64,000 nt of DNA from Loxodes magnus (lineage: Eukaryota > Ciliophora > Karyorelictea > Loxodida > Loxodidae): the NCBI GenBank assembly GCA_946699065.1, contig CAMPDV010000200.1, positions 1-64,000 of the forward strand, in the 5' to 3' direction. The position numbers were made by a program, and so were the translations under genes. Each line of letters begins with the position of its first letter. Positions within the stretch are counted from its first letter, which is position 1. The notes beneath the pieces were generated by a model. It worked only from the letters and a program-made list of their open reading frames with translations, searched no databases and was not told where the DNA came from. Positions 1 to 60,759 of the stretch are shown here, piece by piece.

Positions 1-648
1 TCCTCGAGATTGCTCCGGAGCCTAAAATTAAATGTTCGTATTCCGCCTACTATCCTATCTTGCTTGCTCTTATAGTCTCTAGTTTCTCTTCCATCACTAG
101 TTGCCTTTTTTCTTGTATATATTCCAAGAGCGTTCATCCATAACTGTTTTCTACTCCTTCTTAGTTTGAGCTGTTGATACATCTTCCTTTTTTCCTTCTG
201 TTATCTTAGCTTTTGCCAGTAACTCTTTTTGAAATTTAGGAATTTCCTACACTTCCTTCATAAATGTTCATTTGAGCCACATTAATAGACATTAGTAGGA
301 TTTAACTTCTCGCTTATATAAAGTTTTGTCAACTTTAATTTCTTCGACCTCCGTATTGTCTTATTTCTTATCCCTTGATTCAATTTACCTTTGAAATTTT
401 TGCTGATGTTCTACTAGTTGTGTTTATTGTCCGTTAATTTCTCTGCATTTTTAATCTTGATTCTTGGATTAGCTGTTCGGACTCTGAAATATGTTCCAGA
501 AAGCTCTTAGATCTCTCTCCTAAGATATGAGTCTTGATTTTAATTCTTCTTGCTTGTTCAGATTCTCCTTTAATTTTTCATTGTACTTTTACAGCTTTCT
601 AACCTCCTGGAGGTTCTGAACTAATTTTATGAGCTATTCCATACTCAT
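1..648 (-). pseudogene. Fossil D: zinc-knuckle ORF1-like protein of a retroelement (C-terminal part outside window)
   Basis: Minus strand, TAA/TAG read as Gln. The frame opens at ATG 648 (MSMEQLIKLVQNLQ...) and gives a Glu/Lys/Gln-rich coiled coil. A degenerate CCHC zinc knuckle lies at 249-290 (V-Y-Q-C-GSNE-H-L-[TGA]-RK-C, first Cys lost). The TGA at 258-260 sits where fossil A has Trp (TGG). The coil and the knuckle are in different frames, so the gene is broken. The C-terminal part lies left of base 1; full copies span the unit junctions. The zinc knuckle and coil suggest an ORF1/Gag-type nucleic-acid-binding protein. The element family is inferred. Confidence 0.7.
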
Positions 649-1129: not shown

Positions 1130-1958
1130 TCAACTATACATGTCTTCATCTGAATCAATTTCAAACTGAGATAATTCTTCTTTCTCTTCAATAAGTTCAT
1201 AGAATTGTTCTTCCATCTTCTTGTAATTTTTCTCCAGCTTCTCTAAACAAATTCTAAGGTCATTGCTGTCCTTTTAAAGCTATTAATTCTGTTACTATTA
1301 ATTACTAAGATCTTGTTTGATTAGTGTTACACTTAGATCATCTAATATCAGCTTCTTTCTGTAAATACCTCCAAAGTAGTTACAATAAAGTCTCCTCGAT
1401 GTTCCAGATTCTTTATGGTGCTGCTCAAGCACTCTTCTTCAGTTCGGACATTACCTCCAAAAATTTCCAACCTTTTGACAACAATAACAACGTTTTATTG
1501 AGGGCTTGAATTAAAATTTTTATCCATTTTATCTGATTGAGGTTAGTTTTTTTTTGATTGACAATCGAATTTCTTCTTTAATTTTCTATTGATTTGCTTC
1601 TAGGTTTTTTTAAATAGTTCAAATTAGGAAGCTAAGGCTTCAATTTAAAACTAAAATTTACTTTCCGAGTTTTGATCTTCCTTTTTTCTATCTAACAAAA
1701 GAAGCCGAAGATTCAAGCTTTCCGCCTTTAGGATCTATATTTCGGTATTCATTTTCTCAATTAATGAATAAAGCTAAATAATGTCTTGCTCATGGGGTTC
1801 CTCAAGCTTTTTCAGTTTGCTAGGAAATTCAGTATTTCCCAATCCTTAACAGGAGTAGATTTATCTTTTTTGAATCCTTTGTTCTTCTTAGTTAACTGAG
1901 ACTTAAGATTAATCTTTAAGACTAAACGTTAAGGTTTAGATTCCCGGGTTTTTTTCAT
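1130..1958 (-). pseudogene. Fossil A: zinc-knuckle ORF1-like protein
   Basis: Minus strand from ATG 1958 (MKKTRESKPQ). A coiled coil (EEPHEQDIIQLYSLIEKM) is followed by a zinc knuckle at 1448-1489, C-Y-C-C-QKVG-N-FWRQ-C. The usual His is Asn (AAT) and Trp is TGG. After the knuckle come a second coil (LEKLEKNYKKMEEQFYELIE) and an acidic tail (DSDEDMYS) closed by TGA at 1130-1132. One frame change falls just before the knuckle and is shared by all units. A TGA in CPN-[TGA]-RR is a second candidate Trp codon. It resembles retrotransposon ORF1/Gag proteins; no RT is directly attached. Confidence 0.65.
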
Positions 1959-2509
1959 TTAAAAAAAAGACTTTTAGAAATATTGGTAGGATTAATATAA
2001 AAGCTATTAGAGATATTATATGAAGTATAAAAAAATTAATTTTATAAGATTTAATTATTATTTATCATAAAGCTTATTATTAATTAATTAGAGAGATAAA
2101 ATCTATAAAATATCAATAATTAAATTAGATAATTTTACCTTAATCACAATGCTAATTGATTTAAATTTTAATAAGATGAATACTAATATTAACCAAAAAC
2201 TAAAAGAATAAAAATTATAAATTAATTAAAAATGGAAAGTTATTAGTAAATTTAATAGATAAAAATAAATTAAAAAATGAAATAAAAATAATAATCAAAT
2301 AATAAAGTTTAAGTTATTAATTATAAAATCAACATATTATAATTTATTTATATTTTCATTTAATTTTAAATTATAACCAAATTTTAAGTAGTTTATAAAA
2401 TTGAAAGGATTAAAATCTTTCTATTTCATATTGCTGCAAAAATAATATGGCTTTAGAGATTTTATAATAAATACTTTTATATATACTATTTTATATAATA
2501 GAAATATTT
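1959..2509. other. A+T-rich spacer upstream of fossil A
   Basis: Very A+T-rich with no reading frame, repeat or RNA recognised. Equivalents are 22182-22732 and 42852-43404. Confidence 0.5.
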
Positions 2510-2820
2510 TAATTAATTTCAACTAAAAGAGTTTTTGGGATAAGAAACTCCTTTCCGATTATAAGATCCGACGCTCTCTTTTTATGGAATAACGGGGATA
2601 TCCTGTTGTTCTCCAGGCACAGCTGTTAGGGAGACCCATCGCTATGAGCAGCCAGGCTTCAAGCCCCTACCAAGAGCGGATAATCTCAAAGACAGCGTTC
2701 CCTTCAGAAAATGATTCTGACCAGGGACTTTCTCAGCGACAGGAAAGGAACTTGTTCCCAGCCATAAAACCAGAAAGTTTAGTCACGAAGGTAATTCTCA
2801 GCTCCCACCATCTTTTCAAT
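2510..2820 (+). repeat. GC-rich repeat, left copy (unit 1)
   Basis: About 310 bp of much higher G+C than its surroundings, beginning TTTCAACTAAAAGAG and ending CTCCCACCATCTTTTCAAT. The same sequence lies inverted at 7715-8016. It contains perfect short palindromic stems: GGCTTCAAGCC at 2655-2665 and GGAACTTGTTCC at 2747-2758. A frame open in the standard code (2644-2871, starting MSSQASSPYQERI) runs through it. All copies are near-identical in nucleotides, so frame conservation is not proof of coding. It could be a terminal inverted repeat, a SINE-like element or a structured RNA. Confidence 0.85.
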
Positions 2821-3184
2821 TATTGTATAATAATTTTAAATATATTAATTAATAAATCTATAAATATTTAATATTTTTAGTTTATCTTTTATAATTATCT
2901 ATTTATAAAAAGGGAAATGCTACTTTAAATAAATATTATAATTTAGAAGTTTATTTTTCTTCCTTTTAAGATTATTATAGATGAGATTATTACAGAAAAA
3001 TTTTAAATTATAAGAGTAACTTAAATAATAATTTATATAAAGTTTTTATTTTCTTCATTAATATAGATTTCTTATTTTAACTGTATCTTAATCCAAAAAT
3101 ACTTTTATTTTTAATAATTGAAAATAATTTTATTTATTATTATATTTTTTTAATAATAAATAAATTAAAATAAATAAATTTTAC

Positions 3185-3222
3185 TATAGAGCGTGTAGCA
3201 CCTCATTGACGCGCAGCTCTTT
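3185..3222 (+). repeat. 40-bp stem-loop motif (unit 1, first)
   Basis: TATAGAGCGTGTAGCACCTC followed by ATTGACGCGCAGCTCTTT. Related sequence occurs inverted at 9346-9386 and 13585-13622. Possibly a conserved 3' stem-loop of a retroelement. Confidence 0.6.
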
Positions 3223-3239
3223 CAATATTAATATTTAAT

Positions 3240-3592
3240 TATTATGAAAAATGTTCTCATGCTTCTTGTTAAATTTATAGAAGTCCAATGAGTCATGTCA
3301 GCTTCTCCAATCGGAGAATCTACTTATTAAACATTATTCTCGAATCTAGAATCAAATGCTCCAATCTTCTTGAATAAGTTCCAAATAAGAATTAACTATT
3401 AAGTCCTTAAATAAAAAGCCCGCCAATCAAACTTTCATATTGATAGCGAGAACCCTCAGACAAATTAGGTTTGTCTCTTCCGAGCTTATCCACTCTTACT
3501 TGTGGTGGCATCTAGTCCTAAATATTCGCAATGCAGTATACACTGCACCAGCTTGTCTACTAGGTCTCCCGACCGCAGCCGATATCCATTTT
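3240..3592 (+). repeat. ~350-bp dispersed repeat, copy a (unit 1)
   Basis: Moderate-G+C block with a diverged direct copy at 18963-19276. Shared landmarks in order: ATGAGTCA(T/C)GTCAGCTT, a GGGGAATCT-like box, AAGAATTAA, TTAGGT(T/G)TGTCT, GGCATCTA and CAATGCAGTATACACTG. The last holds the inverted repeat GCAGT-ATAC-ACTGC. Function unknown; perhaps a SINE or element UTR. Confidence 0.65.
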
Positions 3593-3837
3593 ATATATAT
3601 ATAATAACTAGTTCTATATTCATCAAAGCTTGCAAAGAAATTTCTATATTAATAGTTACTTAAACTTAGTTACAAAAGTATATAATTTAAATATAATTTA
3701 TAATTGACTTTAATAATCTTTTGATATAAACAGTTAATTATAAATTATAAAGCATTTTTTATCAATAATTGATTTACTATTTTAGATTTAATAAAAATAT
3801 TTTTGATAAGTTGAATATAAATACTTTTATATTAAAA

Positions 3838-6239: not shown

Positions 6240-7714
6240 TTTTTATTATTGTTTATTTAATCTTTTATATAAATTTTAAATATAGATAAATTACTTATTT
6301 AAATTATACTATTTTTATAACTTAACATAAAATTAATTATTTCTTACAATTAAAATATTAAAAAAAGTAATTTAATATAATTAACTAACTTTTTTTTAAA
6401 ATCTAGTGTTTACTTTTTAAATGCTATATATAAAAATATATTTAAGATATTTGTGTAAAATTATTAGATTTTAATCCAATTAAAATTAATAAATAGTTAT
6501 TAGTAGCTTTATTTTGAAAGTTTATTTGATTTTTATATTTAATTAAAAAATAATAAAAAAATAAAATATAAACACTAATATAATTTATTCTACTGTAATA
6601 TTATCAATTTTTTTAATTTTCTTTATAAATTCAAATTTCTTTCGTGTTTGTTTCAGCAGTTTGAAAATATTTATAAAAAATATTAATTAATCATAAGAAA
6701 CAATTATAAATTTCTCTTAACATTCGATTTAACTTCCATTTATTTAAACTTAAATGGTAAGATTTTTTATTATTTTATAATTTACAAAGTATATATTCTC
6801 ATTCAAAATTAAATATAAAAATATTTGTTTTATTTTAAGATTAAATTAATTTAATTTATTATTTCACATCTTTTTATATTAAAAAGAATATTTATTCTAA
6901 ACTAAGATAAGCTATTGCTATTAACTATTATGATTCTATTTTATTTGAAAATAAAAGTCTTAAGAAGATAATCTTTTTTAATTAAAAGTAAAGCTTCATA
7001 AATTTTAAAGTAATTTGCTCAAAATTAATTTAAAAATTATTAATGAATATTTAAATTTAATATTAACTTCATTCTCAACATCTAATATTTCCAAGCTTCC
7101 ATACTTTTATTATTGTATTCTATAGACAGATGTCACTATTTATTTGCTTTATTGCTTCAGTTAATTTTTACACTTCATATCTAAATTTTCACTATTTTTT
7201 TATTTTTAAGCTTAGAGTTTGAAAAAAAAATGATTATAGCAACTTAAAAAATAAAGCAAGCTATAAAAAAATTAAATATGATAGGATATTGAAAAAGATA
7301 AGAATATCGAAAAATAAGAAAATGATAGATACAGAATAGAAAATGATCACAATTAGAATGAGAAATATAAATTATTAAGATACATTAAATTAATAATGAA
7401 TGAAATATAATTAAAATACATAAATAAGAAGAAAATCTTATTAATAATAGCTAAATTTTATAAAATAAATAAGTTGTTGAAATTAAAAAATGTGATAAAG
7501 ATAAAAAAGTTAAATAAATATTTCAATTTTAATTTTTTATAATTGCATATTATTTATTAAATAAATTAAAATTATTTTATTTCATTTAACAATAAAAACA
7601 ACCATATTCAATAAAAAATAGTCAAATTATATTTTTTAAAATGAAAAATTGTAAATTAAAAGATTATAGTTCTGATAATTAAAGTAAGATTTAATCAAAA
7701 TAAAAAGGAAATAA
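6240..7714. other. Long A+T-rich spacer
   Basis: Nearly pure A/T with many homopolymer runs. I could not support any gene, RNA or repeat in it. Equivalents are 26466-27943 and 47131-48613. Confidence 0.5.
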
Positions 7715-8016
7715 AAAGATGGTGGGAGCTGAGATTGACCTTCGTGACTAAACTTTCTGGTTTTATGGCTTGGAACAAGTTCCTTTCCTGTCGCTGAGAA
7801 AGTCCCTGGTCAGAGTCATTTTCTGAAGGGAACGCTGTCTTTGAGATTATCCGCTCTTGGTAGGGGCTTGAAGTCTGGCTGCTCATAGCGATGGATCTCC
7901 CTAGCAGCTGTGCCTGGAGAACAACAGGATATCCCTGTTATTCCATAAAAAGAGAGCGTCGGGTTGTGCAATCGGAAAGGAGTTTCCAATAAATTTTTTA
8001 GTTGAAATTAATTAAA
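7715..8016 (-). repeat. GC-rich repeat, right copy (unit 1), inverted
   Basis: Reverse complement of the left copy, ending on the plus strand with TAGTTGAAATTAATTAAAAT. The two copies flank about 4.9 kb containing the 405-codon ORF and fossil B, which would fit terminal inverted repeats. It differs from L by scattered substitutions, for example in the terminal AAACTCC...CGACGC block. Confidence 0.85.
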
Positions 8017-8529
8017 ATGATGTTTACTTATTAATTTAATTTAATTATGATCAATTAAGCGAATGTTTATTTATAACTAGAGAAGTGTGCAAGTATAAAA
8101 TCTTATAATTTTTATGATAAGTAAGAGTGCATTCTAAATGAAAAAATTTTTCTGATTTCTCAAAAAAGTTAATATTTGAGAACAGATTTGGTAATTACAT
8201 AAGAAAGAGTATAAGATGTTTTATTATACTTTATATTATTTTTTTAAATATAAAAAGTTCGTGGTATTTTCTTAAAGTAATTAAAATAGTTTAATCTGCT
8301 ATTAGGTTTTTAAATTTTTAAGCAAAATTTTAGATTATTTTTTAAGGATGAGTAAGTAACTTTCAGTTTTTTCTCTATCATTTCATTTAAAGTTTAATAT
8401 TTTTAATTCTTTTTTATAATGATTAATGTTTAAATTCTCTATGATAAATTTACATATATGCTAAATAAATTATTCTATTATCATAAGTAAAAAATATGAT
8501 TAATATTAAGCTAAATTTTATAAAATTTC
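8017..8529. other. A+T-rich spacer right of the GC-rich repeat
   Basis: Nothing recognised. The part nearest 8530 may hold a further, very diverged extension of the inverted RING fragment. Equivalents start at 28676 and 48918. Confidence 0.45.
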
Positions 8530-9698: not shown

Positions 9699-10560
9699 AT
9701 GGAAAAGATGCAAAGAATTAGAAAAGTTTCTTGCTCCCAATAAGTAGAAGTAATTATAATTCTAGAATTTCAAGGAAAAAGGAAAATCCATTAAAAGTGG
9801 TGCTTTTTAAATTTAAACTCTTACCTCTGATGAGAAAACTAAGAAATAGGTCAAAAATTTCTTTAACTCGAAAATCTCGGATTTATCTACTGAGTAACAA
9901 GTAAGCTATGGCTATCTGATTAAATGGTGTTGGACCTTTAGGAAGAGATCAAGAAGCTAAAGAAGCATAATAAGTAGCTTATTTGAAAAACTTGAAATAG
10001 TAGAGACATAGAATCAAGACGTATGATCTTAGAAAGAGAACTAAACATATTTTGAAATATATCTCAAGATGATATCAGTCAAACTAAAACTAGAATAGAA
10101 GTAGATAGGACTGGTTGAAAATATTGAAGAAAATAATCAAAATTCAACATCAAAGGAACTAAGAACGCAAAATCAACTTGCAAATTGGAGATAAAATGGA
10201 TTTATAGAAAAAATTCTATTTTTATATGATTGGAGAAACATGCTAAACTAATTTTGAAGAAATAAAATTTATATAGACGGGAAAAATACTTTAAGTGATT
10301 GTGCTAATTTATCTAGAAAAGAAAAAAAAGCATATTAAAAAAAATAGATACTAAAGAGAAAGAAAGAGAATATATTAATTTAGGAAAATATACTGAATTT
10401 TTTCAAGGAAGGATATACTAAAAATGCAATAAAATTTGGAACCAATTAACAAGAAATAAAGAATGGTAAAACAGATGATAGATCACAGAGAGAAATAAAT
10501 TAGAAAATGAGGAGTTTTAGTAAGAATATTATAATATAAAAAGTAAATTTAAAAATCTCA
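9699..10560 (+). pseudogene. Fossil E: plus-strand ORF1-like protein, zinc knuckle eroded
   Basis: Two frames must be combined. In one, LDLQEEIKKLKKHNK and then ERELNIF-[TGA]-NISQ match fossils C (ERKLSAFWNISQ) and D (ERDLRAFWNIFQ). The TGA at 10053-10055 aligns with TGG in both. The other frame holds LFEKLEIVETQNQD and the later IYIDGKNTLSDCANLSRKEK and NFFKEGYTKNAIKF. At the expected knuckle position the Cys codons look converted (F-Y-F-Y-MIGE). This is a relative of fossils C and D in the opposite orientation, with several frameshifts. Confidence 0.55.
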
Positions 10561-10933
10561 ATCTCTGAAAAATTACCAGTTTTAAAATATTTAAAAGGAA
10601 ATAATTTTAAATAATTTTTTTGTTAATAAATTATAAAAAGAAAATAAATAAAAATTCGCGATAATATTTGTCTTATTCACTTTTTATAAAATATCTTTAT
10701 TAATAATAACCTTAAAATAAAAAAATTATTTAACTGTTTAATAATTCAGTGAAAATAAAAAGAATATAAACATTATTAAGTATTAAATATTTAACTATTC
10801 ATATCCAATAAATTTATTTCTAAGTTTAAAATTTTTTATTAACTTAAATACATCTAATTATTAAATATTTTTAATACTTTTATTTTAATTATCAAATCAT
10901 CATTTTAACTGTTTTAAACTGATAAATTATAAA
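10561..10933. promoter_or_regulatory. A+T-rich upstream region of the RING gene
   Basis: Nearly pure A/T sequence between fossil E and the RING-gene ATG, probably its 5' flank. No specific promoter element can be supported. Equivalents are 31221-31593 and 51461-51832. Confidence 0.3.
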
Positions 10934-12433
10934 ATGGAAAAAACTTAACTAAGTCTTCCATTCCATTGCTCTCTTTGCTCTAAATCTTATAATCTAACCG
11001 ATAATCTTCCTAAACTCTTAGACTGTGGAAAAAATATCTGCCTTAACTGTTGCTAAAATTACTTCTTTATTTAATAGTTTATGTGTCCCTTCGATTATAA
11101 AATGTCTCTTACTCCTGTCATCTAGTTAAATAATGATTAAAGTATTTTAGAACAGTTATATCAAAAATAAAGAAACTAAGAACAATAAAATCTATTATAA
11201 TACAACTTTAAACAACTCTCTCTCAACTTATAAAACTCTATAGATTAGATGTAACTATGAAATACAAACAAAACTAAAGTGATTCAATAAATTTAAGAAA
11301 TCTAATAAAAACTAAATCTTTAAATAAACTAACTAAAATAGTAGAGTATAACACTTAAATCTAAATAATAAACAGAACAACTACAATAATATTAAAACTA
11401 GCATTACTTAACTCTATAAAAAATTAACTTTCTTAAATCACAACTTACTTAAAGTTATAACTAACATGCAATATTTTAATTCTGAGCTTAATATAAGCAA
11501 ATTCTTCATGCCTCATATAAAGAAACTAAAATAATGAAAGAAGAAAATAAAATATAAAAAGAGTTTTCTGACATTCAAATGAATAACTTATTTAGAGTTT
11601 TTATAAATGTAGGTGGCAATAATAAAATGATAGTCTACTAATAAAAATAAGAAACTTAAAAATAAGAAATTTAATAAAAAGAAAATGAAAAAGAATAAGT
11701 TTTAACAGTAGAAGAGTATTATTATAAACATAACTTAGATGACTTAGAAATTTTAGATCTTTTAGTTTTAAAATAAGATTTAATAGAGAGATAAAATGAT
11801 TTAGATTATCACTAAGAAAATTTATTGTCTTTAATTTAACTTTATTTATTGAGTATTTGAGAATCAGAAGAGGCAGAACAAAATAAAATACTTTTAGATA
11901 TTGAACAAAAGTAAAATAGAATATTTTCATCAAATATTATTATTTTGTTTTTAAATAAAAGTGTTGATGATAATATATTTTGAGAGGTAGGAGGAAAGAA
12001 AGGATATTTATGTTTTAAAATGAATAAAGATTGCTAATTTTATGGATTATCTATTTATCCTTCGGTTTCTTAATAATAAATGGCTTATATATCAACTATT
12101 AGAATAATAAAAGGAAATCAAGCAACTTATTAAAATTAAGATGTCATTTGAAAAAATAACTATAATTCAAGTGTTAATATTTTTAATAAGAAATATTATT
12201 AATAACTTTTTTGAGAAAAATCCAAAGTAGAAATTGAAGCTGAATAGTTTTATGTTTTAGAAATCGATTTTTAGAGTGGAAGTTTATGATGTGGAAAACA
12301 AAATGAATTTTAATCTTAGGTTTCTTAGAATGGTTATACTCTTAGGGTATATGAAGCTAAAAATATTCCTAAAGGAAATTTGTCCTTTTATTTATAAGGA
12401 CCACTTTTCGAGTTTAAGTTTAGACTGAAATGA
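10934..12433 (+). CDS. RING-finger / coiled-coil protein (unit 1), 499 codons
   Basis: With TAA/TAG as Gln, one frame runs from ATG 10934 to TGA 12431-12433 with no frameshift. Residues 12-54 form a RING-like finger: C12-x2-C15, C31, C36-x2-C39, C51 and D54 in place of the last Cys, with Lys33 where His is usual (LDCGKNICLNC). Residues ~60-310 are Gln/Lys/Glu-rich coiled coil. Residues ~340-499 are a beta-rich-looking tail (KKGYLCFKMNKDCQFYGLSI; FYVLEIDF; NGYTLRVYEAKNIPKG). The TRIM-like order suggests a ubiquitin ligase, but the altered finger may not bind zinc fully. Seven internal TGAs (11258, 11483, 11858, 11981, 12149, 12212, 12287; codons 109, 184, 309, 350, 406, 427, 452) and no TGG imply UGA=Trp or a dead gene. 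Confidence 0.6.
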
Positions 12434-12481
12434 GAAAATGGAATTCGAATTTTTTAAATTTATAATAACTTACAGTATGAC

Positions 12482-12519
12482 ATATAAATAATATATAAAT
12501 AATATATAAATAATATATT
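12482..12519. repeat. 11-bp microsatellite, short allele (unit 1)
   Basis: About three copies of an 11-bp unit (TAAATAATATA), followed by TTAGCATATATA, in the 3' flank of the RING gene. Confidence 0.85.
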
Positions 12520-12533
12520 AGCATATATATATA

Positions 12534-13159
12534 CATATATATCTCTTTTTTCTGTTTAGCCCATCTGTATCATTTGGATAATTTACTGAGCTATAGTCGA
12601 AAACTTATTTATTTATAAAAATACTGCTAAAAATAAATATAATGATATAGTAAATCTTTTTATTTAAATAGTGAAGGAACGAATAAATAATAAAAGATTG
12701 ATTTTTTATTATAATTTTACTTTGGAAAATATATTTTTGTAACTTTAAATTTTATTATATTAATATAAAAATCAAATATACAATTATATTTATTTAATAA
12801 ATGCTTGAAGTTTATTTTATATCAAAACTGGTTTTCTATATTTACATATGTAAGATAGTTTTTATTAATTTTTTATTTAAATTATACAAATTAAACTCAC
12901 ATACTTTATGAAGGAGTAAACTTAACAAAGCAAGTAAAATAAAATAAAATACCTTTAGGAAAATGTAATTTTATCTTTCATTTAATAATACATAAATATA
13001 ATTTAGAAAATTAATGTTAACAATATTTTTATTTTTCTTCTTAATTTATATTAGCTTTATTTATATATTGTTTATTTTCTTTATTTATATTGTAAATTTT
13101 TGATTAAATAACTGATTTATCATCATATATAATTTTTTAATATTGCTTTGTTCATTGTT
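12534..13159. other. A+T-rich region 3' of the RING gene
   Basis: No gene recognised. Probably 3' flank plus spacer. Equivalents are 33185-33805 and 54868-55490. Confidence 0.45.
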
Positions 13160-13440
13160 CGAAGGTGAACAACAAGGTCATCTTCATCGGAGGTTGGGGA
13201 AGTTAAGTACCCATAATCGAATTTATGTCTTCCTCTGCTTTGGTTTGGCCTCGAGACATAAGATTCTTAGACCTTCAGCATTGGCTTAGTTTAGATTTAA
13301 TTCTGGAACGAAAAAGAAATAATATTGCGAGCTTCATCAGAGGTGGGGAATTTAAGTACCCATAATTGACACATATCGTCCTCTGCTTTGGTGATGCAAT
13401 GAGACACAATCCTGCCATGTCCTTGGACCTCCAACAAATA
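13160..13440. repeat. 60-bp direct duplication in a moderate-G+C block (unit 1)
   Basis: Two imperfect direct copies of a ~60-bp sequence, at about 13172-13243 and 13335-13395. Each runs from CTTCATC(G/A)GAGG through AAGTACCCATAAT to TCCTCTGCTTTGGT. On the minus strand one frame gives protein-like sequence (TKAEDDMCQLWVLKFPTSDE), but the two copies are not in the same frame. Nature unknown. Confidence 0.6.
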
Positions 13441-13447
13441 TTAAAGA

Positions 13448-13580
13448 TTACGAGTATTCTAAAATTATATCAGCATTGAACATTTTTATCAGTTCTGAAT
13501 AATTATACCAGTATTGAACAAGGTCTACCAGTATCTGATAATTTTATCAGTAACAAACATTCTTGTCAGTATGAAACATT
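13448..13580 (-). repeat. 19-20-bp minisatellite (unit 1)
   Basis: The minus strand shows about six to seven degenerate tandem units with consensus TTCAATACTGRTAWAATTA, between the 60-bp duplication and the stem-loop motif. Confidence 0.75.
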
Positions 13581-13584
13581 TTTT

Positions 13585-13622
13585 AAAGAGCTGCGCACCA
13601 ACGAGAGTGCTACGCACTCTGT
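13585..13622 (-). repeat. 40-bp stem-loop motif (unit 1, third)
   Basis: Contains the perfect hairpin AGAGTGC-TAC-GCACTCT. It lies at the 3' side of fossil C on the minus strand. Confidence 0.65.
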
Positions 13623-13629
13623 AATCAAA

Positions 13630-14935
13630 TTTATTTATTTATTTATCAATTTTCTTTTTTAATATTAAAATTCATTTTTCTTTACATTGCCCATATTATA
13701 TAAACCTTTCTTAAATCACCTTTTCGTGTTTTCTCTTATTTCCATATTTTCAAAGTACAAGAAATACTGATTATTTATTATTGTTTCAATTTATAGTTTT
13801 TATTATTCCATAATATAATTAAGATTTTCATTACTTATTTTCATTTTTTTACATAGCATAACTTATTTTGTTATTGTGGTGTCACCTTTATTTGGTTAAC
13901 CACATATTAGATTTTGTAGAATTCTTTTCTTATCAGAAATCTTTTATATCGTATTCATCTGACTTTTCCAGGTCGTAAATCATTATAAATTGCTTTTTCT
14001 CTTCTTGCTAATGTTTGGAAAACAAATCCTATCATTCATGTCTCGAATCATCTCAGTGCATCAGTAATCTTTGGAGCTTCTAAGTAAGGTTAAAATTTTT
14101 GTTCTAATACATATTTCCGTTTAGTGTGCAATAAATCTTAAATAGGCTTTAAATTCTCCTTTCCGTTTCTTAATATTATTTTCCCTTAAACCTATAACAT
14201 TTGTTTTCCTTATATCCATATTTTTACAATATCAATATCTTATTATTATTAATAAAATAGTTAAGTTTGGCAATTTTCGAGGATTTTCACCTCTTCATGC
14301 CGGTTCCAGATTGCTCCGAGATTAAAAAAAATGTTTATAAGTCTCTACTCCTCTCCCACCTACTTGTTCTTGTTGTCTCTAACTATGTTTCCGTTCAGCA
14401 AAGGTTTTTTTCTATAAATATTACAAGCTAGTTCATGAATAGTCTCTCTCTAATTTTACTTTGTTATAGTTATCTCTTTTTCTTTTGCTACGCTTGCTAT
14501 TTCCTTTATTTTCTCCAATACTGGTTCTTAAATTTAGGAATTACTCACATCTTCTTCATAGATATTTCTCTGAATTACAATAGAAGCACCTTTTAACTAA
14601 TTTGATTGGCTTAACCTTCTTCTTCCTGTCAATTACCTCTATCAGCATAAGATCACCTCTTTGCTCATTAAGTTTCATTTGCTGTTGCAATTTCTCTTCT
14701 ATTTCTCCAAGCTTGTTTCCCAACTCCGTCTGTTTCTCTTGCTAATTTTAAGATTATCAGTTCTGACTCTGTGATATGTTCCAAAATGCACTTAATTTCC
14801 TTTCTTAGGACATAAATCTTGACTAGATTTCTCTTGCTTGGTCAGATTCTCCATTAGCTTATCGTTGTCCTTCTTTAGTCTCTTGACCTCTTCCTGAAGG
14901 TTTATTTCAACTTGGATGAGCTTTTCCTTGCTCAT
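13630..14935 (-). pseudogene. Fossil C: zinc-knuckle ORF1-like protein (unit 1)
   Basis: ATG 14935 (MSKEKLIQVEINLQEEVKRL) opens a coiled coil, then SAFWNISQ, then a knuckle at 14547-14588: C-F-Y-C-NSEK-Y-L-[TGA]-RR-C, with His changed to Tyr. One frameshift after the knuckle is inferred from alignment with fossil D. Downstream the frame stays protein-like to about 13630: RHE-[TGA]-QDLFSKHQQEEKK, FIMIYDLEKSDEYDIKDF, KHEKVIQERFIQYGQCKEK. About ten TGAs there sit in Trp-like settings, beside three TGG codons. Likely ORF1 of a non-LTR retrotransposon, paralogous to D. Confidence 0.65.
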
Positions 14936-15129
14936 CTACCAGAAGGATTAAATTCCGACACCTCCTGGTGTAAAGCAGACTTTGCCTGCTTTCTGGGGTC
15001 CTCTAGTGAAGTCGGTGTTTCAGTATGCTTGCTTTTTGAACCTTCTTCCGTTACTCTTGTTAAATTCCAGATTTTTAAGGTTGTTAATATTAAGAAAAGG
15101 CTAAATTTGCGAAGAAGATGATTGCCAAG

Positions 15130-16150
15130 AAGTGGTTTCCTGCTTCCTCCCTCCTTTTTGGCTTAGAAGAGGAGGTATAGAATCCTTTCTAGAAACTTTC
15201 CACCATTTTTTTATCAGTATCAATATCTTTTTTTCTATTTTCTAATAGCAGAAGTTAAAGGAAGAATTCTTTTTATCTTCTTGATTCTGAATCAGATTGT
15301 TAGTTAAGTTTGATTTGCTCCAGTTAACTAATCCTCTGGTCAAATTTTTATCTAAAATTCCTTTCGATTTAAGTAACCTATCATTCTATCTCTTTAGAAA
15401 TGTTTATTATTTTAATTTTTGCTTAGGTCTCTATTCATTTATCAGTTTATTAATTACTAGCTTAAAAGATTAGGCTATTTATTTAAGGTCTTAAACTTCT
15501 TTTGTTAGCTTCTTATCCAATTGTAAGAAGTGGAGTCATTAGTAAGGTCTGGTTAATTATTAGGTTTTGTTGGAAAAGCCTGCTATTTCTTAGGTGATAT
15601 TTTTTAATATATGAATTAATTAATTTACGTGGTTTCACTATTGATAGGTTGACCACAAATTAAGAGAGAATCAAAAGTAAGAATATTCTTGGAAATTATC
15701 TTATCTGACCAGAATCTGCTCATTTTCTTCCATTATTCTAATTCTTCTTCCAATAGATTCATTATATCCTGATCTGAATAGTTAGAGTCAATCTCAATCA
15801 TTAGGTTTTTTTTTAAAAGTAGAATTCTATTCTCTATCTGTTACTTTTCTAACTCTTTCATTTGTCTTTAGATAGTAAAAATATCTGTTAGTCTTTTCTT
15901 AGCGCATCGCAAGTTTCTTTCCACATTTCTTTTTTTAATTTTTATAAAGCTGTTAAATCAAGTTTTTATTTTCGTCCTCATGATAAACTATTATAAATTC
16001 AAGTATGCTAGTTGGATCATGTTCTGTAGTTTTTACCAATTGTTTTCTAATAAGATAAAATTTTTTAAATATAGCCTCGTTTTCTTTTCTCTAATATATC
16101 TTTCAGAAAATTTTTAATGTGACAACCTATTTCTTTTCTTTTTATTGCTT
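15130..16150 (-). pseudogene. Open region between the RT and fossil C (unit 1)
   Basis: The minus strand continues from the RT tail as protein-like sequence (IYQRKENEAIFKKFYLIRKQ; KKKCGKKLAMRQEKTNRYF). After one frameshift it reads MIEIDSNYSDQDIMNLLEEE and FDSLLICGQPINSETTQINQ, and then becomes ambiguous down to fossil C. TGA codons at NSKF-[TGA]-YESYKQ and LKIF-[TGA]-KIYQ look like Trp. It may be the C-terminus of the RT polyprotein or the N-terminus of the fossil C element. Family not recognised. Confidence 0.4.
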
Positions 16151-18463
16151 ATAGGACTCGTATCAAAATTTCGAATTTGTAATTTCCTCACACTATTTTT
16201 TCAATCTGAAGTTAAGGAAGGCTTATTTTTATTAGTTATTACTGATATTTACGTTCGCGAGATTTTCTATTAACTATTCTCTTTCCTCTTTGCATTATTT
16301 GCAATCTTCTATTATATGATCTCATCTTCCATTCTATAATTAAAGAACTAACATGCTTCACTCTCCATTAGATTTAGTTCTTTCATCGTTTATGCTGCTC
16401 CATTACAATTTGGCCATTATCCTAAACAAGTACCATATTTCATGTTTTCTTTGTTTATTGAATCTTAGATAGTTTAGCATTCCTTGTATGAATTTTTTCA
16501 TTCATTCACTTCGATATTTTTAGCAGGTTATCCTAATCTACATTTGTGTAATGGAATTTACATCATTATGGAATTTTATCATTTTTTTTATCAATATTTT
16601 TCCATTTGTTCCTTTTCAGTTATCCTGTATTGTTATTTTGTCATTGAACTGAAGTATCTCCATAACCTTCCTTGTGTAGTTTTCAAATATATAGTTATTC
16701 CTCTTTGCTAATTGACATAATTATCCATCTAATGTTGATTCTTAGTTTAGGAGCAATTTTCTATTGAACATTAACATACATTATCACATATAGTATTGTA
16801 GTTTAAAGAATTGCAATTCATTCTCCAGGATTTCGTTTTATGCGAAAAGGAACATCTATTGCAGCTCTTAATGATCTACGCTTCGTGATCTACAATTTAT
16901 TTAAAGAATTGTTTCCTATAACTTCCTCTATGAATGAAATACAATCGCTTCCATAACCAAATATTTGATTTATAAAGGATTTTATTATTATAGATGCATT
17001 ATATGGAATAATTCCTTTCTGAATTGTTAATTTACTTTATATTCATGCTTGGGTTTTCTGGTATTCTTAGATTCTTGATTCCAGGTGTTTTTAATATGAA
17101 ATGTTTTCTTATTTCAATGGCCCAAATACTTAAACTCCTTCACTTTCTCTATTAATATTCCATTTATTGCGATTATCTCTTAATTTTGTCTTGCATTACC
17201 ATTTCATACCATTCATTTTGTTTTGTCCGCAATTTATAAATTATATCGCTATGATCATTATTATAGTATATCAGTCATATCTTCTAGTTAATCTCGATGA
17301 AATAATGCTACAATATCATCAGCATATGCTAGGGCACCTACTTATCTTACTTCTGTTCCATGTTCCGTTTCAATTTGTATTGTAATCACAACTTTTTTTC
17401 CTTTAGTTCATTCAGTAAATAATTTATTATTATATTGAATAATCTCGGGGAGCAGGCACATCCTTATTTTACTCCTTTTTAAGTTTCAAATTCTTCAGAG
17501 ACTAGTTCTTTATTCTTAATCTTTGCTCTCCTCTTTATATATGCCTGCTAGGAGTCTTATTACTCCTTCAGGTACTTCGATCACATTCCGTATTTTTCAT
17601 ATATCTTATCTGATTACTGAATCAAATGCTTTTTGATATCAATAAAAATGATGATAGTCTCATAATTGTTATAATATAATCATTCTTGTATTGTTCTTAA
17701 ATTGAATGTTTATTGAGAGCATGATTTACCTGCTTTAAATCCGTACTATAATTCATCATCTCATCTTTACAAATAAGGATTTAATTACTCGAATAGTTAG
17801 AGATCTATGATTTTCAAAAGGTTATTTATAAGTGATATTGAATGGTGGTTCATAGGGTCATCTGTGTTTCCTTTTTTGTGTAGCAATATAATGTAGGATT
17901 CTTTAATCTGTTTAGGTATTTTACCCGATTGAATTATATTTTAAATTAATTTTGAGTTATATTTATTAAATTCTCTCCTCCGGCTTTTATTACTCCTATT
18001 TAGCATTTATCTGGTCCTAGTTTATCAATGTTCAAGTAGTAAACTTCTTTTGTCTAGTGTACTTTTAAATTCCTTTCCAAATATCATTCATATTTCCCTG
18101 ATTAATCTTTCCCAGACAGCTATTGAATTAGTTTCTTTAATCTTTTCTTTCTTGTTTTCTAATCTACTTCTGGCTTCTTGTTTCATTTTTATGTTGAGTG
18201 CAATGTCCCTTTTTCCTTATCTTATAAGATTTTTAACTTATTTTTGCTTAATTTTAAAATTATCTTCTTAGCTTTTTTATTTCCTCAGAGTAATTTTATT
18301 TTCTTTATTATTGACTTGTGTATCCACATATGGTCTCCACTCCTTCCTATACTATTTTCTTTCATGTATTATAATAGTCTTCATTTATATGTTTTAAATC
18401 CCATTTAACCTGCTAATTTCTTGAATTAATCTTATATCTGTTTTCTTTTTAGTTTCTGATAGA
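16150..18463 (-). pseudogene. Non-LTR retrotransposon reverse transcriptase, decayed (unit 1)
   Basis: Minus strand with TAA/TAG as Gln. In order: LGPDK and IKAGGENLI (about 18025-17970), KKGNTDDPMNHHSISLINN (about 17877), FKAGKSC (17742), DIKKAFDSV with one base missing (17640-17617), GVKQGCACSPRLFN (17475) and LAYADDIVALF with the catalytic YADD (17329-17306). Then come a thumb-like QRYKLQIADKTK (about 17252) and the C-terminal HIIEDC part of a Cys/His finger typical of non-LTR elements (16318-16301). It copied element RNA into DNA when active. Frameshifts near 17630 and in the finger make it a pseudogene. No endonuclease domain was recognised, so it is probably 5'-truncated. TGAs at 17597-17599, 17255-17257 and 16322-16324 fall at Trp positions. 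Confidence 0.88.
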
Positions 18464-31593: not shown

Positions 31594-33093
31594 ATGGAAA
31601 AAACTTAACTAAGTCTTCCATTCCATTGCTCTCTTTGCTCTAAATCTTATAATCTAACCGATAATCTTCCTAAACTCTTAGACTGTGGAAAAACTATCTG
31701 CCTTAACTGTTGCTAAAATTACTTCTTTGTTTAATAGTTTATGTGTCCCTTCGATTATAAAATGTCTCTTACTCCTGTCATCTAGTTAAATAATGATTAA
31801 AGTATTTTAGAACAGTTATATCAAAAATAAAGAAACTAAGAACAATAAAATCTATTATAATACAACTTTAAACAACTCTCTCTCAACTTATAAAACTCTA
31901 TAGATTAGATGTAACTATGAAATACAAACAAAACTAAAGTGATTCAATAAATTTAAGAAATCTAATAAAAACTAAATCTTTAAATAAACTAACTAAAATA
32001 GTAGAGTATAACACTTAAATCTAAATAATAAACAGAACAACTACAATAATATTAAAACTACCATTACTTAACTCTATAAAAAATTAACTTTCTTAAATCA
32101 AAACTTACTTAAAGTTATAACTAAAAGGAAATCTTTTAATTCTGAACTTAGTATAAGCAAATTCTTCATGCCTCATATAAAGAAACTAAAATAATGAAAG
32201 AAGAAAATAAAATATAAAAAGAGTTTTCTGACAATAAAATGAATAACTTATTTAGAGTTTTTATAAATGTAGGTGGCAATAATAAAATGATAGTCTACTA
32301 ATAAAAATAAGAAATTTAAAAATAAGAAATTTAATAAAAAGAAAATGAAAAAGAATAAGTTTTAACAGTAGAAGAGTATTATTATAAACATAACTTAGAT
32401 GACTTAGAAATTTTAGATCTTTTAGTTTTAAAATAAGATTTAATAGAGAGATAAAATGATTTAGATTATCACTAAGAAAATTTATTGTCTTTAATTTAAC
32501 TTTATTTATTGAGTATTTGAGAATCAGAAGAGGCAGAACAAAATAAAATACTTTTAGATATTGAACAAAAGTAAAATAGAATATTTCCATCAAATATTAT
32601 TATTTTGTTTTTAAATAAAAGTGTTGATGATAATATATTTTGAGAGGTAGGAGGAAAGAAAGGATATTTATGTTTTAAAATGAATAAAGATTGCTAATTT
32701 TATGGATTATCTATTTATCCTTCGGTTTCTTAATAATAAATGGCTTATATATCAACTATTAGAATAATAAAAGGAAATCAAGCAACTTATTAAAATTAAG
32801 ATGTCATTTGAAAAAATAACTAAAATTCAAGTGTTAATGTTTTTAATAAGAAATATTATTAATAACTTTTTTGAGGAAAATCCAAAGTAGAAATTGAAGC
32901 TGAATAGTTTTATGTTTTAGAAATCGATCTTTAGAGTGGAAGTTTATGATGTGGAAAACAAAATTAATTTTAATCTTAGGTTTCTTAGAATGGTTATACT
33001 CTTAGGGTATATGAAGCTAAAAATATTCCTAAAGGAGATTTGTCCTTTTATTTATAAGGACCACTTTTCGAGTTTAAGTTAAGACTGAAATGA
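31594..33093 (+). CDS. RING-finger / coiled-coil protein (unit 2), 499 codons
   Basis: Exactly the same length as the unit 1 copy and the same TGA positions, with no indel. Substitutions against unit 1 include several that change amino acids, for example Asn34 to Thr inside the finger and Ile46 to Val. They show no obvious preference for silent sites, so selection on the protein is doubtful. Confidence 0.58.
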
Positions 33094-51832: not shown

Positions 51833-53334
51833 ATGGAAAAAACTTAACTAAGTCTTCCATTCCATTGCTCTCTTTGCTCTAAATCTTATAATCTAACCGA
51901 TAATCTTCCTAAACTCTTAGACTGTGGAAAAAATATCTGCCTTAACTGTTGCAAAAATTACTTCTTTATTTAATAGTTTATGTGTCCCTTCGATTATAAA
52001 ATGTCTCTTACTCCTGTCATCTAGTTAAATAATGATTAAAGTATTTTAGAACAGTTTATCAAAAATAAAGAAACTAAGAACAATAAAATCTATTATAATA
52101 CAACTTTAAACAACTCTCTCTCAACTTATAAAACTCTATAGATTAGATGTAACTATGAAATACAAACAAAACTAAAGTGATTCAATAAATTTAAGAAATC
52201 TAATAAAAACTAAATCTTTAAATAAACTAACTAAAATAGTAGAGTATAACACTAAATCTAAATAATAAACAGAACAACTACAATAATATTAAAACTACCA
52301 TTACTTAACTCTATAAAAAATAGCTTTCTTAAATCACAACTTACTTAAAGTTATAACTAAAAGGAAATCTTTTAATTCTGAGCTTAGTATAAGCAAATTC
52401 TTCATGCCTCATATAAAGAAACTAAAATAATGAAAGAAGAAAATAAAATATAAAAGAGTTTTCTGACAATAAAATGAATAACTTATTAGAGTTTTTATAA
52501 ATGTAGGTGGCAATAATAAAAATGATAGTCTACTAATAAAAATAAGAAATTTAAATTAAGAAATTTAATAAAAAGAAAATGAAAAAGAATAAGTTTTAAC
52601 AGTAGAAGAGCATTATTATAAACATAACTTAGATGACTTAGAAATTTTAGATCTTTTAGTTTTAAAATAAGATTTAATAGAGAGATAAAATGATTTAGAT
52701 TATCACTAAGAAAATTTATTGTCTTTAATTTAACTTTATTTATTGAGTATTTGAGAATCAGAAGAGGCAGAACAAAATAAAATACTTTTAGATATTGAAC
52801 AAAAGTAAAATAGAATATTTTCATCAAATATTATTAATTTTTTTTTAAATAAAAGTGTTGATGATAATATATTTTGAGAGGTAGGAGGAAAGAAGGGATA
52901 TTTATGTTTTAAAATGAATAAAGATTGCTAATTTTATGGATTATCTATTTATCCTTCGGTTTCTTAATAATAAATGGCTTATATATCAACTATTAGAATA
53001 ATAAAAGGAAATCAAGCAACTTATTAAAATTAAGATGTCATTTGAAAAAATAACTAAAATTCAAGCGTTAATGTTTTTAATAAGAAATATTATTAATAAC
53101 TTTTTGAGGAAAATCCAAAGTAGAAATTGAAGCTGAATAGTTTTATGTTTTAGAAATCGATTTTAGAGTGGAAGTTTATGATGTGGAAAACAAAATGAAT
53201 TTTAATCTTAGGTTTCTTAGAATGGTTATACTCTTAAGGTATATGGAGCTAAAAATATCCCTAAAGGAGATTTGTCCTTTTATTATAAGGACCACTTTTC
53301 GAGTTTAAGTTTAGACTGAAATGAGAAAATGGAA
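51833..53334 (+). pseudogene. RING-finger / coiled-coil protein (unit 3), frameshifted
   Basis: At least seven single-base indels against units 1 and 2 (about 52056, 52252, 52323, 52454, 52487, 52521 and 53107) disrupt the frame. They may be true decay or uncorrected read errors. The expanded microsatellite begins 40 bp after the stop. Confidence 0.6.
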
Positions 53335-53371
53335 TTCGAATTTTTTAAATTTATAATAACTTACAGTATGA

Positions 53372-54858
53372 CATATAAATAATATATAAATAATATATAA
53401 ATAATATATTAGCATAATATATAAATAATATATAAATAATATATAAATAATATATAAATAATATATAAATAATATATAAATAATATATAAATAATATATA
53501 AATAATATATAAATAATATATAAATAATATATAAATAATATATAAATAATATATAAATAATATATAAATAATATATAAATAATATATAAATAATATATAA
53601 ATAATATATAAATAATATATAAATAATATATAAATAATATATAAATAATATATAAATAATATATAAATAATATATAAATAATATATAAATAATATATAAA
53701 TAATATATAAATAATATATAAATATAAATAATATATAAATAATATATAAATAATATATAAATAATATATAAATAATATATAAATAATATATAAATAATAT
53801 ATAAATAATATATAAATATAATATATAAATAATATATAAATAATATATAAATAATATATAAATAATATATAAATAATATATAAATAATATATAAATAATA
53901 TATAAATAATATATAAATAATATATAAATAATATATAAATAATATATAAATAATATATAAATAATATATAAATAATATATAAATAATATATAAATAATAT
54001 ATAAATAATATATAAATAATATATAAATAATATATAAATAATATATAAATAATATATAAATAATATATAAATAATATATAAATAATATATAAATAATATA
54101 TAAATAATATATAAATAATATATAATAATATATAAATAATATATAAATAATATATAAATAATATATAAATAATATATAAATAATATATAAATAATATATA
54201 AATAATATATAAATAATATATAAATAATATATAAATAATATATAAATAATATATAAATAATATATAAATAATATATAAATAATATATAAATAATATATAA
54301 ATAATATATAAATAATATATAAATAATATATAAATAATATATAAATAATATATAAATAATATATAAATAATATATAAATAATATATAAATAATATATAAA
54401 TAATATATAAATAATATATAAATAATATATAAATAATTAATAAATAATATATAAATAATATATAAATAATATATAAATAATATATAAATAATATATAAAT
54501 AATATATAAATAATATATAAATAATATATAAATAATATATAAATAATATATAAATAATATATAAATAATATATAAATAATATATAAATAATATATAAATA
54601 ATATATAAATAATATATAAATAATATATAAATAATATATAAATAATATATAAATAATATATAAATAATATATAAATAATATATAAATAATATATAAAATA
54701 ATATATAAATAATATATAAATAATATATAAATAATATATAAATAATATATAAATAATATATAAATAATATATAAATAATATAAAATAATATATAAATAAT
54801 ATATAAATAATATATAAATAATATATAAATAATATATAAATAATATATAAATAATATA
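53372..54858. repeat. 11-bp microsatellite, expanded allele (unit 3)
   Basis: About 1.49 kb, roughly 135 copies of TAAATAATATA. The original right-hand flank TTAGCATA occurs both near the start (about 53409) and at the end (about 54858), so the expansion lies to the right of an ancestral three-copy block. A few units have one-base changes (53730, 53816, 54124, 54437, 54695, 54780). Confidence 0.97.
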
Positions 54859-58443: not shown

Positions 58444-60759
58444 GCTTATAGGACTCGTATCAAAATTTCGAATTTGTAATTTCCTCACACTATTTTTTCA
58501 ATCTGAGGTTAAGGAAGGCTTATTTTTATTAGTTATTACTGATATTTATGTTCGCGAGATTTTCTATTAACTATTCTCTTTCCTCTTTGTATTATCTGCA
58601 ATCTTCTATTATATGATCTCATCTTCCATTCTATAATTAAAGAACTAACATGCTTCACTCTCCATTAGATTTAGTTCTTTCATCGTTTATGCTGCTCCAT
58701 TACAATTTGGCCATTATCCTAAACAAGTACCATATTTCATGTTTTCTTTGTTTATTGAATCTTAGATAGTTTAGCATTCCTTGTATGAATTTTTTCATTC
58801 ATTCACTTCGATATTTTTAGCAGGTTATCCTAATCTACATTTGTGTAATGGATTTGCATCATTATGGAATTTTATCTCTTTTTTTATCAATATTTTTCCA
58901 TTTGTTCCTTTTCAGTAATCCTGTATTGTTATTTTGTCATTGAACTGAAGTATCTCCATAACCTTCCTTGTGTAGTTTTCAAATATATAGTTATTCCTCT
59001 TTGCTAATTGACATAATTATCCATCTAATGTTGATTCTTAGTTTAGGAGCAATTTTCTATTGAACATTAACATACATTATCACATATAGTATTGTAGTTT
59101 AAAGAATTGCAATTCATTCTCCAGGATTTCGTTTTATGCGAAAAGGAACATCTATTGCAGCTCTTAATGATCTACGCTTCGTGATCTACAATTTATTTAA
59201 AGAATTGTTTCCTATAACTTCCTCTATGAATGAAATACAATCGCTTCCATAACCAAATATTTGATTTATAAAGGATTTTATTATTATAGATGCATTATAT
59301 GGAATAATTCCTTTCTGAATTGTTAATTTACTTTATATTCATGCTTGGGTTTTCTGGTATTCTTAGATTCTTGATTCCAGGTGTTTTTAATATGAAATGT
59401 TTTCTTATTTCAATGGCCCAAATACTTAAACTCCTTCACTTTCTCTATTAATATTCCATTTATTGCGATTATCTCTTAATTTTGTCTTGCATTACCATTT
59501 CATACCATTCATTTTGTTTTGTCCGCAATTTATAAATTATATCGCTATGATCATTATTATAGTATATCAGTCATATCTTCTAGTTAATCTCGATGAAATA
59601 ATGCTACAATATCATCAGCATATGCTAGGGCACCTACTTATCTTACTTCTGTTCCATGTTCCGTTTCAATTTGTATTGTAATCACAACTTTTTTTTCCTT
59701 TAGTTCATTCAGTAAATAATTTATTATTATATTGAATAATCTCGGGGAGCAGGCACATCCTTATTTTACTCCTTTTTAAGTTTCAAATTCTTCAGAGACT
59801 AGTTCTTTATTCTTAATCTTTGCTCTCCTCTTTATATATGCCTGCTAGGAGTCTTATTACTCCTTCAGGTACTTCGATCACATTCCGTATTTTTCATATA
59901 TCTTATCTGATTACTGAATCAAATGCTTTTTGATATCAATAAAAATGATGATAGTCTCATAATTGTTATAATATAATCATTCTTGTATTGTTCTTAAATT
60001 GAATGTTTATTGAGAGCATGATTTACCTGCTTTAAATCCGTACTATAATTCATCATCTCATCTTTACAAATAAGGATTTAATTACTCGAATAGTTAGAGA
60101 TCTATGATTTTCAAAAGGTTATTTATAAGTGATATTGAATGGTGGTTCATAGGGTCATCTGTGTTTCCTTTTTTGTGTAGCAATATAATGTAGGATTCTT
60201 TAATCTGTTTAGGTATTTTACCCGATTGAATTATATTTTAAATTAATTTTGAGTTATATTTATTAAATTCTCTCCTCCGGCTTTTATTACTCCTATTTAG
60301 CATTTATCTGGTCCTAGTTTATCAATGTTCAAGTAGTAAACTTCTTTTGTCTAGTGTACTTTTAAATTCCTTTCCAAATATTATTCATATTTCCCTGATT
60401 AATCTCTCCCAGACAGCTATTGAATTAGTTTCTTTAATCTTTTCTTTCTTGTTTTCTAATCTACTTCTGGCTTCTTGTTTCATTTTTATGTTGAGTGCAA
60501 TGTCCCTTTTTCCTTATCTTATAAGATTTTTAACTTATTTTTGCTTAATTTTAAAATTATCTTCTTAGCTTTTTTATTTCCTCAGAGTAATTTTATTTTC
60601 TTTATTATTGACTTGTGTATCCACATATGGTCTCCACTCCTTCCTATACTATTTTCTTTCATGTATTATAATAGTCTTCATTTATATGTTTTAAATCCCA
60701 TTTAACCTGCTAATTTCTTGAATTAATCTTATATCTGTTTTCTTTTTAGTTTCTGATAG
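58443..60759 (-). pseudogene. Non-LTR reverse transcriptase, decayed (unit 3)
   Basis: Same motifs without the 22-bp duplication. Carries the ancestral missing base in DIKKAFDS. Largely unit 1-like in sequence. Confidence 0.87.

Follow-up and report, generated by a model that had tools for sequence, protein, structure and literature searches.

The use of UAA and UAG as glutamine (Gln) codons, together with UGA as both a tryptophan (Trp) codon and a stop, has been described for the ciliate Loxodes magnus in the available part of PMC11441545, and the accessible portions of that paper and of PMC4967479 state that UGA is read as Trp when the poly(A) tail lies sufficiently far downstream, and otherwise as a stop. 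As far as the accessible text of PMC4967479 goes, the amino-acid readings are UAA/UAG as Gln and UGA as Trp in Parduczia sp., and UAA as Gln, UAG as Gln and UGA as Trp in Condylostoma magnum; UGA makes up 0.042% of codons in C. magnum, 0.120% in Parduczia and 0.059% in Blepharisma japonicum. This study provided evidence that a stretch of 64,000 nucleotides (the window; positions 1 to 64,000 of contig CAMPDV010000200.1, C200 below) lies in a karyorelict genome, almost certainly the macronuclear genome of Loxodes magnus, that uses NCBI translation table 27, in which UAA and UAG (UAR) are Gln and UGA is Trp inside genes and a stop at their ends. We put the probability of this reading at about 0.97. 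The non-standard code is real but already known from published work on ciliates of this kind; since it was already assigned to Loxodes, our finding is a correct rediscovery.

Genome-wide searches were made in the window's own assembly (705,730,643 bases in 7843 contigs), which matches Loxodes magnus in size and content; the link to karyorelicts drawn in the initial annotation, a model's reading of the letters, is thus very probably right. The available text of PMC11441545 puts the L. magnus macronuclear assembly at 706 Mbp and its RVT_1 copies at about 2,700. The window itself (C200:1-64000) has a GC content of about 24%, and no standard-code open reading frame of 150 amino acids was present in its 64 kb. 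A unit of 20-21 kb is tandemly repeated in it, complete three times and with a fourth copy begun; because these units are about 99% identical, repeated sightings within the window are not independent.

The actin-family host genes carry much of the argument. In the assembly, 97 candidates were scored and 96 matches listed, 25 of them with internal TGA. For the alignment, 11 loci were picked by hand, 7 of them for carrying TGA, and TGA was counted in columns held by at least 6 rows; 17 were found, four of which lay upstream of the start codon on inspection, leaving 13 coding TGA. In 7 of these 13 the commonest other residue of the column is Trp, against a background of 42 of 4192 positions, and they fall in three Trp columns (the first in L033, L034, L036 and L041, the second in L036 and L042, the third in L033). 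Host housekeeping genes therefore do not confine TGA to their ends, since it stands in frame at three conserved actin-family Trp columns. TGA also directly follows the conserved C-terminus in 9 of the 11 rows, the other two not matching the pattern, and this serves as a consistency check because the search pattern itself required TGA. The IQA-type motif was located in 9 of the 11 loci, and its Gln is written TAA in 8 of them and TAG in 1.

A kinase motif was searched genome-wide as D-[V/I/M]-any codon-S/T-L/F-G-[V/I/M]; this pattern matched 174 times and its reverse 5 times. Among the 100 of 174 matches listed, the free codon is TGA 35 times, TTT 21, TAT 16, TGG 11, TAC 10, TTC 5, CTT 1 and TGT 1; by residue, these 100 listed matches have TGA 35, TGG 11, Phe 26, Tyr 26, Leu 1 and Cys 1, and the 95 distinct sequences among the matches listed include 32 with TGA and 11 with TGG. 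In kinases the free position is occupied by Trp, Phe or Tyr. On these codon counts TGA takes up the Trp share, with Phe and Tyr present in their own codons.

The third line of evidence is the reverse transcriptase (RT) of retroelements, which is represented in the window by the following pieces:

17638..17967, minus strand: RT fossil piece a, with TGA at 17761-17763 (LQR-TGA-DDE, no Trp column) and at 17680-17682 (IQE-TGA-LYY, Trp column)
17537..17638, minus strand: RT piece b, with DI-TGA-KI at 17597-17599, TGA in 19 of 19 aligned copies
59386..59832, minus strand: RT piece c, in unit 3, open from before GVKQGC to beyond YADD, with four TGA, three in Trp columns
16794..17078, minus strand: RT piece d, with TQA-TGA-IQS at 17043-17045 (copies TGA 14, TGG 2) and a second TGA that did not align

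These four homology-defined pieces contain TGA 9 times and TGG not once in 388 codons. Piece c matched human LINE-1 ORF2p in a PDB sequence search (1.6e-05), in which two single RT frames gave chance-level matches only. In the RVT_1 search of the assembly, the best 150 of 3403 candidates were scored and all 150 exceeded the cut-off (best 116.1 bits), with 3 to 9 TGA inside each match; the RT frames of 8 loci held 8-10 TGA and 1 TGG per 333 codons. When 20 genome loci were aligned to the nine in-frame TGA codons of the window's RT, six fell in columns of almost only TGA or TGG, two did not and one was unaligned. The six columns are IQE-TGA (TGA 15, TGG 4, ATT 1), DI-TGA (TGA 19), LQQ-TGA (TGG 14, TGA 5, ACA 1), KTK-TGA (TGA 18, TTC 1), MV-TGA (TGA 15, TGT 1, AAA 1) and TQA-TGA (TGA 14, TGG 2). 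On this tally, most TGA of the window's dead RT copy are inherited sense codons for Trp rather than damage, with a minority added by decay. In the alignments, TGA stands, in alternation with TGG, at conserved Trp sites of open-frame host genes and retroelement copies, and also ends actin-family genes.

The Gln of the RT block GVKQGC, which the initial annotation had given as TAA, is indeed TAA at 17464-17466 on the minus strand, and a degenerate pattern for this block matched three times, once per full repeat unit, whereas 100 shuffles gave a mean of 0.00. The annotated DI-TGA-KI, QQ-TGA-SQRY and GR-TGA-DHIIEDC were all recovered, except that SQRY continues with NL and not KL. Concerning the reading frame, a break near 17392 in unit 1 stems from a difference in homopolymer length that unit 3 does not show; some apparent fossil frameshifts are therefore unit-specific or sequencing errors.

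A gene encoding a RING domain, a coiled coil and a PHR domain occurs once in each full unit:

10934..12433, plus strand: RING-PHR gene of unit 1, 499 codons from the ATG at 10934, terminal TGA at 12431-12433
31594..33093, plus strand: RING-PHR copy of unit 2, no insertions or deletions (indels) relative to unit 1, same 7 TGA codons
51833..53321, plus strand: RING-PHR copy of unit 3, ten one-base indels relative to units 1 and 2

The unit-1 frame has internal TGA at 11258, 11483, 11858, 11981, 12149, 12212 and 12287 and no TGG, which agrees with the seven and none counted earlier, and its Gln codons are TAA 49, TAG 10, CAA 13 and CAG 1 (59 of 73 are TAA or TAG). It terminates in TGA ahead of an AT-rich repeat, with 47 codons between the last internal TGA and the stop in this one gene. 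The RING domain matched TRIM32 (9.8e-05, PDB sequence search), the PHR domain is PF08005 (29.5 bits, 1.2e-06, unit-2 copy with TGA as Trp; the PDB sequence search gave no match for it), and the middle region looks coiled-coil-like by eye. This frame is one of the two indel-free frames said to need TGA as a sense codon; which frame was meant as the second could not be told. When it was cut at TGA into 8 segments, it scored best of the three forward frames in 7, and a reverse frame outscored it in 2 of the 8 and tied in 1.

Between units 1 and 2 the frame shows 21 substitutions and no indels, whereas the remainder of the unit shows 115 substitutions and 28 indels. This indel argument was given little weight because unit 3 has ten one-base indels in the frame and homopolymer errors may raise the indel counts. 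Relatives elsewhere in the genome gave 91 matches from the best 86 scored of 785 candidates, with identity down to about 30%, and near full-length open frames among them carry 4-8 TGA. In an alignment of 26 loci (22 distinct sequences), codon 309 is TGA in 24 and TGG in 2, and codons 109, 184, 350, 406 and 452 are TGA in 21, 22, 16, 15 and 16 rows, respectively. The zinc-binding motif of the RING domain has Lys in place of the His of TRIM32; this change and the preponderance of nonsynonymous differences between units 1 and 2 (18, against 2 synonymous) can be read as signs of an amplified gene family whose evolution is relaxed or fast. That the amplified region is larger is suggested by further RING-PHR matches beyond the window on the same contig (C200 65-117 kb) and on C192, C2068, C2230, C3248 and C3255.

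The TGA to TGG ratios of 35:11 in the kinase motif, 8-10:1 in the RT frames and 7:0 in the RING gene suggest that UGA may be the main Trp codon of this genome while still serving as a stop, a proposal that we favour by a modest measure.

RT, RING and PHR were also scored against generic Pfam profiles while the residue assigned to TGA was varied; the outcome was equivocal and not decisive on its own. One RT frame reached RVT_1 at 31.5 bits with TGA as Trp, and nine other residues gave no listed RVT_1 match. Trp scored above Ser at LQQ-TGA (by 3.9 bits) and KTK-TGA (by 1.2 bits), had an advantage of about 2 bits at NIF-TGA, and was level with the alternatives within 0.2 bits at the MV, LGH and LF sites; for the RING match, Trp or most other residues made no difference. 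At five other RT positions, hand-chosen as controls after a clustered random draw had been set aside, Trp over Ser gave +1.4, +0.1, -2.1, -2.4 and -2.8. Reading TAA and TAG as Gln gave RVT_1 51.6 bits against 42.0 with Lys, the only alternative tried.

Several explanations that leave UGA without the sense of Trp have to be weighed. Under code 6, UAR would be Gln and UGA a stop only, and the TGA in question would have arisen in dead copies by decay of TGG or of other codons. The initial annotation had itself entered G-to-A decay as a caveat, which was fair for the fossils that it used:

9930..10205, plus strand: fossil E coiled-coil piece, with NIF-TGA-NISQ at 10053
14478..14822, minus strand: fossil C piece, with FW (TGG 14781-14783) and a zinc knuckle with TGA
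183..615 (427-615 and 183-479), minus strand: fossil D pieces, with FW (TGG 496-498) and a zinc knuckle with TGA
1400..1600, minus strand: fossil A piece, with TGG in the zinc knuckle, in the same column as the TGA of C and D

The pairing that it had reported of the fossil E TGA with the TGG of C and D holds in one aligned column, as does that of the knuckle TGA of C and D with the TGG of A. Its list of TGA sites was selective: in the fossil alignment TGG stands opposite 3 of 9 TGA codons, so that the fossils alone could not exclude decay, and the other six, which face GAG, AAC/ACC, AGC/AGT, GGA/AAC, GGA and TTA/TTC, indicate that decay is also present. Code 6 with decay would further suit the frameshifted LINE (long interspersed nuclear element) copies of the window, the two of nine RT TGA that face other codons in genome copies, and the RING gene, which gives no sign of purifying selection when units 1 and 2 are compared, because 18 of 20 codon differences are nonsynonymous and 2 synonymous (random expectation 81% nonsynonymous). 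Against it stand the in-frame TGA at Trp sites, both in RT copies with open frames and in actin-family genes of full length, and the excess of TGA over TGG among the kinase matches listed; in addition, simulated neutral decay from seven TGG to 7 TGA took a median of 383 substitutions, with which the indel-free RING frame of units 1 and 2 is to be compared. In our reading, this explanation is refuted by the open-frame host genes with TGA at conserved Trp, and we regard it as highly improbable. Equally hard to credit is that the TGA codons sit in short introns, a multiple of three in length, that are spliced from the mRNA: a GT..AG span of 15-60 bases of this kind can enclose 4 of the 7 RING-gene TGA, but control codons are enclosed at about the same rate (26 of 55), 3 of the 7 cannot be enclosed, and the same residues alternate between TGA and TGG in other copies.

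The observations that weigh against Trp bear in part on the idea that UGA is a sense codon for another residue, or for several. The other 6 of the 13 actin TGA, in an alignment chosen partly for TGA as noted above, stand opposite Phe, Gln, Gly, Val and, twice, Phe/Tyr, and the 20-residue scan of PHR placed His (30.8) and Tyr (29.7) ahead of Trp (29.5). The unit-1 PHR match was obtained with TGA as Ser and not with Trp or Arg; in another RT frame, which holds an out-of-frame stretch, Trp ranked last among nine residues, with 51.6 bits where the others reached 53.3-55.8; and at the LQR, IQE, DVI and SL sites Trp scored 1.1-2.8 bits below the alternatives tested. The LQR-TGA column holds GAT 13 times and others 7, the LGH-TGA column ATA 11 and TAA 1. 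In the RING family, the alternatives at codons 109, 184, 350, 406 and 452 are ACA, TAT, TAA, TTA, GAA and others, with TGG not listed, and codon 427 is TGA 5 and TGG 3 among many codons. No tRNA gene was found in the 64-kb window. The alternation of TGA with TGG where actins and RT have a conserved Trp, and the kinase site, where Phe and Tyr carry their own codons, nevertheless make a meaning other than Trp a very slim prospect. The initial assignment of UAR as Gln and of UGA as Trp and stop is supported by actin-family host genes, the kinase motif and retroelement copies of the same assembly.

Some further features of the window were recorded. In unit 3, an 11-base AT-rich repeat at 53311-54858 is expanded by about 1.4 kb relative to units 1 and 2, and the sequence near it has many one-base indels, possibly an assembly error. 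An inverted repeat of about 325 bases (2491-2816 and 7714-8034, 92% identical, with more copies in units 2 and 3) looks like a short interspersed nuclear element on inspection; no above-threshold Rfam match was obtained for the one copy searched, which lies within 2480-3620. At the gathering threshold, no Rfam family was found in the window, where two short stretches reached sub-threshold matches only, and no relatives were found in the viral and prokaryote contigs searched.

As to mechanism, published work on the table 27 code suggests that UGA far from the mRNA poly(A) tail would be decoded by tRNA-Trp and UGA close to it recognised by the release factor. Raw sequence reading alone sufficed to spot a non-standard code that is real. 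In genomes of this kind, gene finders have to allow TGA the two meanings of Trp and stop. If UGA is used heavily for Trp genome-wide, Loxodes would be a good organism for measuring positional termination amid abundant sense UGA.

Compared with table 6 (Tetrahymena, Paramecium), UAR as Gln and UGA as a stop are alike, but UGA is not a sense codon there, and UGA as a stop only does not describe this genome, in which actin-family genes have in-frame TGA at conserved Trp columns. The Condylostoma magnum code is table 28, in which UAA and UAG double as stops; here, within the actin family, nine gene ends are TGA, found by a pattern requiring TGA. The sense readings of all three codons in that species are the same as ours in the available text of PMC4967479. 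UGA accounts for 1.4% of codons in the RING gene (7/499) and 2.4-3.0% in RT frames (8-10/333), few frames and no genome average, against 0.120% in the accessible account of Parduczia; the available parts of the sources yielded no Loxodes figure. Because such use lies far above the values given there for Condylostoma, Parduczia and Blepharisma, position-dependent termination would, if UGA is the main Trp codon, bear a far heavier load than in the species for which it was described. The 47 codons between the last internal TGA and the stop of the RING gene are, for this one gene, consistent with the published description of distance to the poly(A) tail. With table 27, the karyorelict nuclear code of Loxodes and Parduczia, the agreement extends to UAR as Gln, UGA as Trp and UGA as stop, and no difference in kind was found.

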